From Variovorax sp. HW608 (GTDB taxonomy: Bacteria > Pseudomonadota > Gammaproteobacteria > Burkholderiales > Burkholderiaceae_C), in NCBI RefSeq assembly GCF_900090195.1, contig NZ_LT607803.1:3870229-3934228 (forward strand): a stretch of 64,000 nt of DNA, written 5' to 3'. The notes under the pieces were generated by a model. It was not told the DNA's origin. It did not search any database and was given only the letters and a program-made list of their open reading frames with translations. A program made the position numbers and the translations under genes. Positions within the stretch are counted from its first letter, which is position 1. Each line of letters opens with the position of its first letter. Shown here piece after piece: positions 24,836-29,328 of the stretch.

Positions 24836-27800
24836 GTGCACCCGACCGCCGTTCCCCCCGCTCCGAGCGACGACGCGCCGCAGCGCATCGTCAAGGTCCG
24901 GCGCGACTACAACAGCTGGGTCGCCCGCGAGACGCTCGAGGACTACGCGCTGCGCTACACGCCCCAGCGCTTTCGCCGCATGCCCGAATGGCGGGTGGCG
25001 AGCACCGCCTTCGGCGGCGCGGCGTCCTTCCTGATCCTGGAGGCGGTCGGCGCGACGCTCCTGGTGCAATACGGCTTCGTCAACGCCTTCTGGGCCATCC
25101 TCGTCACCGGGCTCATCATCTTCCTCGCGGGGCTGCCGATCAGTGTCTATGCGGCGCGGTATGGCGTGGACATGGACCTGCTCACGCGCGGCGCGGGCTT
25201 CGGCTACATCGGCTCCACGCTCACCTCGCTGATCTACGCCTGCTTCACCTTCATCTTCTTCGCGCTCGAAGCGGCGGTGATGGCCTATGCGCTGGAACTG
25301 GCGCTCGGCATCCCGCCGGTGTGGGGCTACCTCGTGTGTGCGCTGGTCGTGATCCCGCTGGTGACGCACGGCATTTCCGCCATCAGCCGCCTGCAGGTCT
25401 GGACGCAGCCCATCTGGCTCTTGATGCTGGTCGTGCCCTTCGGCTATGTGCTGGCGCGCGATCCTGGTGCGTTCTCGGGTATTGCGCACTATGTCGGTGT
25501 CAGGTCGTCCTCGATCGGGTTCGATATGCACCTCTTCGGTGCTGCGCTCACCGTCGGCATCGCGCTCATCACGCAGATGGGCGAACAGGCCGACTACCTG
25601 CGCTTCATGCCGGCGTGCACGCCGGCCCATCGCGGGCGCTGGTGGGCCGGCGTGCTGGCCGGCGGGCCGGGCTGGGTGGTGCTCGGCGTGCTCAAGATGC
25701 TGGGCGGCGCGCTGCTCGCGTACCTCGCGATCAGCCACATGGTGCCGCCCGAGCGCGCGATCGATCCGAACCAGATGTACCTCGCCGCCTACGAGTACGT
25801 GTTCCCCAACTACGGCTGGGCGGTGATCGCGACCGCCGTGTTCGTGGTGATCTCGCAGCTCAAGATCAACGTCACCAACGCCTATGCGGGCTCGCTCGCA
25901 TGGAGCAACTTCTTCTCGCGCGTCACGCACAGCCACCCCGGGCGCGTCGTGTGGGTGGTGTTCAATGCGCTCATCGCCTTCATGCTGATGGAGATGAACG
26001 TGTTCGAGGTGCTGGGCGACGTGCTCGGGCTCTACGCCAATATCGCGATCGCCTGGATGATGGCGGTGGTGGCCGACCTGGTCGTCAACAAGCCGCTCGG
26101 GCTCTCGCCGCCGGGCATCGAGTTCAAGCGCGCGCATCTGTGGGACATCAACCCGGTCGGCGTCGGCGCGATGGCGCTGGCATCGGTGGTGTCGATCACC
26201 GCGCACCTCGGCGCCTTCGGGCCGCTGGCGCAGGCGTTCTCGGCATTGATCGCGCTGGGCACCGCGTTCGTCGCTTCGCCCGTCATCGCGTGGGCCACGC
26301 GCGGCAAGTACTACATCGCGCGGTCTTCCGGCAGCGTGGTGCACTGGGCGCGCGTCGAATCCGAGGCCGGCCGCTACCAGCGGCTGACCGTGCAGCACTG
26401 CGCCATCTGCGAGCGCGAATACGAAGGCCCGGACATGGCGCATTGCCCGGCCTATCAGGGCCCGATCTGCTCGCTGTGCTGCACGCTCGATGCGCGCTGC
26501 GGCGATCTGTGCAAGCCAGAGGCGTGCCTCTCGGCGCAATGGTCCGGCGCGCTGCGCTGGCTGCTGCCGCGCCGCGTCTGGCCCTACCTGGATACGGGGC
26601 TCGGGCACTTCCTGCTGCTGATGCTGATCCTCGTGCCGCTGCTCGCGGCGGTGTTCGGCGTGCTCTATCAGCAGGAACTGCGCGCGCTGGCCGAAGGCGC
26701 GCTGACCGAGGGCGCGATGCTCGACATGCAGCCCGCCGCGCTGCGCTCGGGCTTCTTCAAGGCGTACATGGCGCTGCTGCTGATCGCAGGGATCATCGCG
26801 TGGTGGCTGGTGCTCGCACACCAGAGCCGCAAGGTGGCGCAGGAAGAGTCGAACCGTCAGACGCACCTGCTGATGCGCGAGATCGAGCTGCACCGCGAAA
26901 CCGATCGCGCGCTGCAGGAGGCCAAGCGCAGCGCCGAGCAGGCCAACCAGGCCAAGAGCCGATACATCAGCGCCATCAGCCACGAGCTGCGCACGCCGCT
27001 CAACAGCATCCTCGGCTATGCGCAGCTGATGGGCGAGGACGCCGCGGTGCCGCCGCACCGCAGGCAGGCGGTCGCGGTGATCAAGCGCGGCGGCGAGCAC
27101 CTGCTGTCGCTGATCGAGGGCACGCTGGACATCGCGCACATCGAGGCCGGCAAGCTCACCTTGAGCGCGAAGCCGATGCAGTTCGCCGAAGTCATGCGCG
27201 AGCTCGCGGACATGTTCGAGCTGCAGGCGCTCGAAAAGGGACTGGCCTTCCGCTTCGAGCCGACCGGCACCTTGCCGGAGGTGGTGCGCGCCGACGAGAA
27301 GCGCGTGCGGCAGATCCTCATCAACCTGCTGGGCAACGCGATCAAGTTCACCACGGCCGGCGAGGTCGCGCTGCGTGTGCGCTATGCGCGCGAGTTCGCC
27401 GCGATCGAGATCGAGGACACCGGACCCGGCATGTCGACCGAGGAGCTGGGCCGCATCTTCGAGCCCTTCGCGCGCGGCTCGACCGCCGCGGGCGCGGCGT
27501 CGGGCGCGGGGCTTGGCCTCACGATCGCGAAGATGCTGATCGACCTCATGGGCGGCGAGATGACGGTGCAGAGCACGCCGGGCGTGGGCTCGGTGTTCCG
27601 CGTGCGCCTGTTCCTGCCGCATGTGCACGAGGCGCCGGTTGCGAGTGCGCGCCGCGTGGGCGCGCCGCGCGCGCGCCGGGGCTACGAAGGCCGGCGCCGC
27701 AAGCTGCTGGTGGTCGACAACGAAGAGGCCGATCGCGAGCTGCTGGTGGATGTGCTGGCGCCACTCGGCTTCGAACTGCGGACCGCCGCGAGCGGCCACG

Positions 27801-28315
27801 ATGCGCTCGACCTGATCGCGGCCGGCTGGCATCCCGATGCGATGTTCGTCGACCTCGCGATGCCGGGCATCGACGGCTGGGAAACCATCCGCCGCTCGCG
27901 CGCGCTCGGGCTTGCCGACGCCGCGGTGGCGATCGTCTCGGCCAACGCTTTCGACAAGCGGCTGGAGAACGACGTCGGCATCACGCCCGAGGACTTCTTC
28001 GTCAAGCCGGTACGGCACAGCGAGCTGCTCGATTGGCTCGAGCGCCGGCTCGCCTTGCAGTGGACCGACGACGCAGCGGCGCCGGCGCCCGCCGCGCAGT
28101 CGCCGCGCATCGTCGTCCCCACGCCGGAGCGCCTGCGCGCGCTCGAAGAGGCGGTGAGCCTCGGCTACTTTCGCGGAATCATGAACCAGCTCGACGACAT
28201 CGATGCGGCCCAGCCCGAATGCGCGGAGTGGACGTCGGCCCAGCGCACGCTCGCGCGGCAGTTCCAGTTCGAAGCCATGAGCCGCGCGCTGACCGCAGCG
28301 GCAGGTGCGGCATGA
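24836..28315 (+). CDS. NCS1-type transporter / hybrid histidine kinase fusion
   Basis: About 1,159 residues. Residues 1-500 resemble the NCS1 nucleobase/cation symporters (cytosine, allantoin, hydantoin permeases), with about twelve helices: ARRYGVDM-like and [34 protein letters not shown], and [11 protein letters not shown] Cys-rich linker follows (residues 522-564, [10 protein letters not shown] to KPEAC). Next are two more helices (near 590-610 and 640-660) and a short coiled coil. A HisKA domain has H716 in SHELRTPLN, the HATPase has NLLGNAIKF and [12 protein letters not shown], and a receiver domain has D1006 in [11 protein letters not shown]. The GTG at 24836 is the inferred start, just past the palindrome; ATGs at 24761 and 24785 are alternatives. 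Its stop overlaps the response-regulator ATG. Probable role: membrane sensing of a nitrogenous solute. Confidence 0.88.
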
Positions 28316-29328
28316 GCGCAACGCCGCCCACCAGCCCGCTCGTGCAGTCGCTGCGCGAAAGCGGCGGCAACAGCGACCTCGTGCTCATCGTCGACGACGT
28401 GCCCGACAACCTCGCGGTGCTGCACGATGCGCTCGATGAATCGGGCTACACGGTGCTCGTCGCCACCAGCGGGGAGCAGGCCTTGCAGCGGGCCGTGCAG
28501 GCCAAGCCCGACATCATCCTGCTCGACGCGATGATGCCGGGCATCGACGGCTTCGAAGTGGCGCGCCGCCTCAAGGCCGATGCGGCGACCGCGCACATCC
28601 CGATCGTCTTCATGACCGGCCTGACCGAGACCGAGCACCTCGTCGCCGCGCTGGAGGCCGGCGGCGTCGACTACGTCACCAAGCCGATCAAGCCCAAGGA
28701 AGTGCTTGCGCGCATGAACGTGCATCTGCAGGGCGCGCGCCGCGCGCGGCAGGAGGCGCGGCAGGCCGGGCAGGCGCGCAATGCGCTCGATGCCTTCGGC
28801 TACGCGAGCTTCACGGTGCGCATGCCCGAGGGCAAGCTGGTCTGGCAGACCGCGCTCGCGCGCGAATTGCTGCTGCGCTATTGCGGCACCAGCGCGCCCG
28901 TGACGCCGGCCGCGGTGATCGAATGGCTGCAGCGCCATCTGCCCGATGCGGTGCAGCGGCAGGTCGAGCCGCCGGTGCTGTCGATCACGCAGGGCGCGGC
29001 CAGCCTCAACCTGCGGCTGCACCAGCAGACCGGGCAGGACGATGGCGGTGGCGAGTGGCTCATCATCATGCGAGAGGTGTCCGACACCGCGGTGATCGAA
29101 GCCATGAGCCTGAGCCTGAAGCTCACGGCGCGCGAAGCCGAGGTGCTCTATTGGGTGGTCAAGGGCAAGACCAACAAGGACATCGGCGAGATCCTCGGCA
29201 GCAGCCCCGCGACCGCCAAGAAGCACCTCGAGCGCGTCTACGTCAAGCTCGGCGTCGAGACCCGCACCGCGGCCGCGGGCGTGGCGATCAAGCGCATCCG
29301 CGAGCTGCAGCCGCAGTTCGAGATCTGA
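28312..29328 (+). CDS. Response regulator with LuxR-type HTH
   Basis: A 338-residue regulator. The N-terminal receiver domain has LIVDDVPDN, the phospho-acceptor D72 in LLDAMMPGIDG, the conserved T in FMTGLTE and K in VTKPIKP. A middle region (residues about 130-250, from YASFTVRMPEGKLVW) resembles a degenerate PAS-like sensor. The C-terminal LuxR domain has LTAREAEVLYWVVKGKTNKD and ATAKKHLERVYVKLGVETRT. The ATG overlaps the kinase stop (ATGA), so it is the kinase's cognate partner. Its target could be the palindrome upstream of the kinase and ureABC, an inference from position. Confidence 0.93.
   Translation: MSATPPTSPLVQSLRESGGNSDLVLIVDDVPDNLAVLHDALDESGYTVLVATSGEQALQRAVQAKPDIILLDAMMPGIDGFEVARRLKADAATAHIPIVFMTGLTETEHLVAALEAGGVDYVTKPIKPKEVLARMNVHLQGARRARQEARQAGQARNALDAFGYASFTVRMPEGKLVWQTALARELLLRYCGTSAPVTPAAVIEWLQRHLPDAVQRQVEPPVLSITQGAASLNLRLHQQTGQDDGGGEWLIIMREVSDTAVIEAMSLSLKLTAREAEVLYWVVKGKTNKDIGEILGSSPATAKKHLERVYVKLGVETRTAAAGVAIKRIRELQPQFEI

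Follow-up and report, generated by a model that had tools for sequence, protein, structure and literature searches.

What does a membrane transporter fused to a sensor kinase perceive when its gene stands beside those for urease, and what does it control? We addressed this question for a two-component system encoded within a 64,000-nt stretch (the window) of the Variovorax sp. HW608 genome, a single contig of 7.73 Mb. The system comprises a hybrid sensor histidine kinase that carries an NCS1-like transporter domain at its N-terminus (24836..28315, + strand; 1,159 aa, GTG start) and a LuxR/NarL-type response regulator (28312..29328, + strand), and it lies divergent from ureABC. We consider it likely that the sensor is a transceptor for urea or short amides and that the pair controls urea uptake; the ligand, transport and DNA binding in this reading are what we infer.

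The sensor is encoded by one frame that runs from the GTG at 24836 (an in-frame ATG lies at 24761) to the stop codon at 28313-28315 with zero internal stops; one database copy is 1,164 aa long. Its transporter domain (residues 20-495; 24893..26320, +), delimited by hhalign to NCS1, is followed by a Cys-rich module (C522-C559; 26399..26512, +) whose eight cysteines are invariant in 79 of 79 sensors and which is probably a metal site. Between this module and the kinase are two extra hydrophobic helices (residues 592-610 and 643-661; 26609..26818, +), placed by hydropathy only. The HisKA (residues 706-772; 26951..27151, +; phospho-acceptor H716 at 26981-26983), HATPase_c (residues 820-927; 27293..27616, +) and receiver (Response_reg, residues 958-1067; 27707..28036, +; D1006 at 27851-27853) domains all score above their Pfam cut-offs, and neither H716 nor D1006 varies among 15 diverse members aligned, as expected of a hybrid histidine kinase. 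No invariant His was present in the C-terminal tail in the same alignment, so no HPt is evident. The regulator gene starts with an ATG at 28312, so that it shares four bases with the end of the kinase gene, and its product matches Pfam Response_reg (D72) and GerE, the LuxR helix-turn-helix, which places it in the NarL/LuxR class; the helix-turn-helix is conserved across 58 loci. The order of domains and the overlapping regulator that the initial annotation had read from the sequence are thus confirmed.

The fusion itself is real. No stop or frameshift separates transporter from kinase, and the long frame is kept in relatives. Among 100 genomes of the taxonomic family, the 656-residue transporter/linker region was matched in 57, and nearly all of these matches lie within a frame of more than 900 codons; the exceptions are two fragments in G049 (420 and 731 codons) and one in G089 (292 codons). 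Conservation across relatives rules out a sequencing artefact or a chance frame. The region also occurs in 52 of 398 Pseudomonadota genomes and in 38 of the 61 genomes of our relatives set, nearly all 38 being from the genus. Named carriers include Variovorax, Ramlibacter, Polaromonas, Acidovorax, Hydrogenophaga, Zoogloea and Azonexus. In the family search, the 8,000 proteins sharing most words with the sensor were scored and all were significant.

That the transporter half belongs to NCS1, as first proposed, is upheld by indirect comparison, whereas a direct match to PF02133 is absent: Pfam gave none even at E<=10, and a PF02133 search of the HW608 genome did not pick up the sensor locus. A profile of 11 sensor domains aligned by hhalign with six NCS1 proteins of the same genome (probability 98, E 1.9e-13, 344 columns), a comparison confined to NCS1 among transporter families. 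In addition, a kinase-less relative, L075, which is 29-32% identical, matches PF02133 at E 3.6e-9, and so do 6 of the best 120 closer kinase-less relatives. We take the sensor domain, on these similarities, to be a divergent NCS1 branch. A weak match of L075 to a synthetase was dismissed, the synthetase being unrelated. No SLC5 (sodium:solute symporter) domain was matched in the sensor by Pfam at E<=10, and a search of PDB sequences with the domain profile gave no match. Read by hand through two chained alignments, K343 of the sensor aligns with Ser312 of Mhp1, a sodium ligand in Mhp1, and N348 with Asn318. These placements hint that sodium coupling is not of the Mhp1 kind.

Gene neighbourhoods point to what the domain may sense. 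We searched 80 stretches by tblastn for urease, UrtA-E, AmiE, FmdA and the regulator (UrtA matches rest on similarity); these were the window and others that we chose from the listed match places, 81 in all before the stand-alone L075 was excluded. In the window, NCBIfam confirmed the neighbouring ureA (gamma subunit, 24439..24741), ureB (beta, 24113..24442) and ureC (alpha, 22395..24113), all on the - strand, with 94 bp between ureA and the sensor gene. Urease genes, urtA, fmdA or amiE were present in 78 of the 80 stretches, and the remaining two are a 4.8-kb contig (L074) and a locus (L092) whose urtA is further along the same contig than the fetched stretch reaches. Clade A, defined as loci at least 73% identical, accounts for 21 of the 80; urease was found in 19 of these, UrtA in 6, and ureA was directly divergent from the sensor in 18. 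Among the other 59 loci the counts were 8 for urease, 50 for UrtA (directly divergent in 45), 45 for FmdA and 17 for AmiE, and in one of the stretches (L041) NCBIfam confirmed UrtA-E, the aliphatic amidase and FmdA. A further set of 79 named loci is the best 80 of 594 confirmed, less one that begins inside the gene (L330), so close relatives are over-represented in it; urease was found at 58, UrtA at 32, FmdA and AmiE at 0, and any of these at 65. When the tree is rooted on L075, the clade with ureA adjacent (support 0.99) is nested within lineages with urtA adjacent, and the urease-adjacent position of the sensor therefore looks derived. Four short sensors of 894-983 codons (L048, L073, L115 and L116) lie near FmdA, and no receiver was found in any of the four by blastp, nor in two of them by Pfam; they possibly form a formamide-specific branch.

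The link to urea metabolism drawn in the initial annotation is therefore kept, but the compound upstream of urea (such as purine, allantoin or hydantoin) that it had envisaged as ligand is less supported than urea or short-chain amides. The genes that recur beside the sensor encode urease, UrtABCDE, formamidase and aliphatic amidase, and urea or short-chain amides are the better guess. An alternative ligand, some other nitrogen compound (allantoin, hydantoin, cytosine, guanidine or creatinine) whose breakdown yields urea or ammonia, is in our view improbable. NCS1 proteins of known substrate transport nucleobases and ureides, which would suit such a ligand, as would the labels "allantoin" or "cytosine permease" that sources give to the kinase-less relatives and the two creatininase-family fragments that one Klebsiella plasmid carries about 5.5 kb beyond its sensor, since creatinine breakdown can yield urea. 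Across loci, however, the neighbours are urea and amide genes, and no purine, allantoin or hydantoin catabolic gene is named in the annotated regions read, labels on relatives aside, although no search was aimed at such genes.

A DNA motif connects the system with urea uptake. The pattern TACGN8CGTA was chosen after palindromes had been seen in the same loci, so its count upstream of the sensor is exploratory; ten spacings were tried, each at zero and one mismatch. Outside clade A (clade B, with L074 and L075 dropped), 31 of 58 loci have an exact site ahead of the sensor versus 0 in 15 dinucleotide shuffles, and in clade A 9 of 21 loci have one within one mismatch versus 0.4 in shuffles. Stretches upstream of urtA, a set separate from the sensor-upstream loci, are an independent test of the motif. 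We assembled 99 of them (32 of 36 places plus 67 of 70, our own counted once, with truncated or unfetched ones left out). Among these, the exact motif was present in 75 of the 78 that come from sensor-bearing genomes and in 4 of the 21 from genomes without a sensor. Of the three sensor-bearing cases that lack it, one is at a contig end (L195), another belongs to a second urtA copy (L254) and the third is from G049, in which the sensor frame is split by a transposase-like gene. The motif without a sensor occurs in four genomes, two of which (G040 and G008) are incomplete; the others are G027 and G062. No sensor match was found in G062, which keeps the urtA motif and a regulator (48-49% identical) directly divergent from ureA (locus L369). 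This retention of regulator and motif points to the regulator as the putative DNA binder. The regulator was searched for in 11 of the 21 genomes lacking the sensor.

In HW608 itself, urtABCDE lies 0.8 Mb from the sensor locus, and TACGCCACCCGGCGTA, the sole exact TACGCCN4GGCGTA site in the genome, is found upstream of urtA. The site begins 166 bases ahead of the UrtA match, and its end is 63 bases short of the urtA start codon; among 40 matches, only the gene that follows it exceeds the NCBIfam cut-off for UrtA. It is one of 15 exact TACGN8CGTA sites in this genome, where the backwards pattern has 241. With up to two mismatches allowed, TACGCCN4GGCGTA occurs 288 times versus 1,019 for its backwards control. 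The motif is thus rarer than its control, and mismatched sites cannot be called.

Could the regulator act mainly on the divergent urease operon, with the urtA motif belonging to another factor and being gained or lost in parallel? Two features of clade A would fit that arrangement: ureA is directly divergent in most of its loci (18 of 21), and 9 of its 20 loci from other genera have a TACGN8CGTA-like site, with at most one mismatch, ahead of the sensor. We consider it very unlikely, given that the same motif stands in the gap between sensor and urtA in the wider family and in the gaps upstream of the sensor on Klebsiella, Azospirillum and Methylovirgula plasmids. On the Azospirillum and Methylovirgula plasmids it also precedes an amidase gene.

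In the gap between ureA and the sensor, a sigma-54-type -24/-12 element, TGGCAC-N6-TGC (24810..24824, +), reads toward the sensor gene, and its mirror with one mismatch (24795..24809, -) reads toward ureA; back to back they make up a perfect palindrome with 15-bp arms (24794-24825) that is unique in the genome within three mismatches. We rejected this palindrome as an operator of the regulator on account of that uniqueness and because most of 20 genus relatives have two separate sigma-54-type elements, sometimes spaced apart. Allowing one mismatch, the element toward the sensor is present in 19 of the 21 loci of the genus and in 15 of the 20 remaining clade A loci, and that toward ureA in 18 of 21 and 12 of 20, respectively, versus shuffle means of 0.9-1.7. 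Outside clade A the element toward the sensor was found in 14 of 58 loci versus 3 in shuffles, and the leftward one in 2 of 58 versus 2.7, which is no enrichment; conservation above shuffles in both directions is therefore confined to clade A. With the usual -12 to +1 spacing, the predicted transcription start is the G of the GTG at 24836. Of the 19 genus loci with the element, 17 have an in-frame GTG exactly at this predicted start and the other 2 have one displaced by a single base, so the sensor message may be leaderless, and conserved as such. Sigma-54 promoters need an NtrC-type activator. The LuxR-type partner is not NtrC-type, and the simplest reading is that nitrogen limitation would control sensor and urease while the regulator would control urtA.

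Together these data suggest the following course of events. The NCS1-like domain would bind urea (or formamide or acetamide) at the membrane, and its conformational state would pass through the Cys-rich module and the two helices to the kinase. The kinase would then phosphorylate the LuxR-type regulator, either through H716 and receiver D1006 or directly, and the regulator would bind TACG-N8-CGTA (TACGCC-N4-GGCGTA in HW608) upstream of urtA and turn on high-affinity urea uptake. Because the sensor and urease promoters look sigma-54 dependent in this lineage, the amounts of sensor and urease would be set by nitrogen limitation, and uptake would be tuned by the ligand signal.

Kinase-less relatives of about 535 aa may give insight into how such a receptor arose. 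At E<=1e-3 they account for 5,246 of the 7,997 proteins scored, and the best 120 were examined. Stand-alone permeases lie in urease or formamidase loci in 6 of 8 annotated records read (one further Acinetobacter record, outside the 8, has no annotation). On two Acinetobacter plasmids the permease gene precedes ureEFG-J-D-ABC, and in a 5.4-Mb Klebsiella pneumoniae record filed as a plasmid it comes right after ureG; it is beside fmdA in Moraxella and near fmdA in Tsukamurella. In Methylovirgula it directly follows the sensor-regulator pair, between fmdBA and an amidase gene. Behind the more distant stand-alone NCS1 protein of L075 come genes resembling those for amidase, UrtA/AmiC and AmiR, the AmiR-like one having been named by eye. 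In a further tree the 31 sensors are monophyletic (0.99) and the Methylovirgula permease is their sister (0.99), which fits one fusion, but the ingroup root is weak (0.60). At the residue level, 120 positions are invariant (>=97%) in 79 sensors, and 77 of them are equally invariant and identical in 124 stand-alone permeases; a further 18 of the 120, within the aligned transporter part, are switched between the two groups. For example, E69 of the sensor is Phe in 119 of 124 permeases and F65 is Tyr in 124 of 124. At somewhat less than even odds, we tentatively propose that the stand-alone proteins are an unrecognised NCS1-type permease for urea and short amides, and that one fusion made it a receptor. 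The sensor would have kept the core of the permease and gained cysteines, two helices and a kinase, with about 18 fixed substitutions such as that at E69 marking the change.

The same comparison bears on whether the transporter domain only transports while sensing is cytoplasmic, for example by the eight-cysteine module responding to metal, redox or nitrogen status. This would accord with the invariance of all eight cysteines in 79 of 79 sensors, with the many core transporter residues left unchanged from the stand-alone permeases, and with the available part of a report that the SLC5 domain of CbrA is non-essential for signal perception (PMC9100948). Yet 119 of 120 kinase-less permeases already have a CxxC...CxLC tail, shorter than the eight-Cys module of the sensor, so the module cannot be counted as a feature of the kinases alone, and the 18 switched positions, E69 among them, are within the transporter part. 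Cytoplasmic sensing is thus unlikely in our view, and sensing of urea or short amides by the transporter domain is the reading that we retain.

Several observations weigh against this urea-sensing reading, as do the creatininase-family fragments described above. No neighbour of the kinds sought was found in the stretch at 14 of the 79 named loci, four of which are cut by contig ends near the gene, the uncut ones being from Zoogloea, Denitromonas, Azonexus, Cognatazoarcus and one Curvibacter. The HW608 gap between ureA and the sensor has no TACGN8CGTA site within one mismatch, and a clade A Mitsuaria plasmid stretch has no exact one, so direct regulation of ureABC is unsupported. G027, which is 99% complete, has the motif, and neither sensor nor regulator was found there at the thresholds used. 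The Fisher value of 1e-12 for the association of the urtA motif with sensor presence is uncorrected for kinship and overstates certainty, because related genomes are not independent. The Streptomyces and Arthrobacter stand-alone permeases have no ure or fmd neighbours in the records read, and a stand-alone query of the 398 Pseudomonadota genomes (at most 3 candidates scored per genome) found only frames of at least 894 codons, which are sensors; the stand-alone form is therefore rare in Pseudomonadota. Finally, the accessible part of a study of a related genus reports that an ntrC deletion of Acidovorax citrulli still grew on urea, which speaks against strict NtrC control of urease (PMC10052978).

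The transporter-kinase fusions that we found in the literature, as far as the sources were available, are of the SLC5 type. In the portions seen of these sources, the SLC5/STAC kinases CbrA, CrbS/MxtR and RpuS likewise join a transporter to a (hybrid) histidine kinase, CrbS and RpuS are paired with LuxR-family regulators, much like the LuxR-type partner here, and CrbR acts via an imperfect inverted repeat. The present sensor differs from them in its NCS1-like transporter, its linker of an eight-Cys module and two helices, and neighbours that concern urea and amides rather than acetate, histidine or pyruvate. Compared with NCS1 transporters (Mhp1, PucI and CodB type; PF02133), it shows profile similarity over most of the domain but fails PF02133 and has K343 at the place of Mhp1 Ser312. 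Also close are stand-alone proteins called "purine-cytosine permease family" in Acinetobacter, Klebsiella, Moraxella and Streptomyces, the Acinetobacter one being 47-48% identical to the sensor domain; they share core residues and the CxxC...CxLC tail but have no kinase, fewer tail cysteines (in those printed) and 18 consistent differences. We recognised no description of an NCS1-kinase fusion in the open-access literature searched, which is not a claim that none is in print. In the part available of a nitrogen gene table for Dechloromonas aromatica, a 1,131-aa histidine kinase and a CheY-like receiver are listed beside UrtA, next to urtABCDE and urease (PMC2907700). Compared by description only, the size and place of this kinase fit the sensor family, and that part of the source mentions no transporter domain. 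In the text available of a wastewater-plasmid paper, urtABCDE is found with fmdA and formamide uptake is suggested.

If our reading is true, it would give a ligand class and a regulon to thousands of proteins filed as "ATP-binding protein" or "hybrid sensor histidine kinase", and a second transporter family would join the short list of transporter-kinase fusions. Stand-alone permease and sensor, with their very similar cores, would then be a natural pair for testing residue by residue how a transporter becomes a receptor.

The system is also carried on plasmids. In the plasmid collection, some records of which are, judged by size, whole chromosomes, 526 records match, 342 of them named Klebsiella, and carriers include Paraburkholderia, Azospirillum, Sinorhizobium and Klebsiella records. 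On one Klebsiella plasmid (L374), formamidase-urtEDCBA is divergent from a sensor and regulator of the same kind, with a TACGN8CGTA site.

Elsewhere in the window, ureE (17780..18379, -) and ureG (16438..17088, -) were named from sequence; the relative in the same place in L086 matches UreE in Pfam, and L376 has an annotated ureG in the same gene order. In HW608 a sugar-type ABC transporter set (18482-22394, +) separates ureC from ureE, consisting of an RbsA-like ATPase, a permease, a binding protein and a small mutarotase-like gene, of which the family search matched the ATPase alone; in another locus of the genus (L117), ureE directly follows ureC. Downstream of the regulator, a long, repetitive surface-adhesin-like gene in the style of trimeric autotransporters, named by eye (29783-36611), appears as two overlapping frames, 29783-34498 and 34086-36611, whose overlap suggests a frame change.

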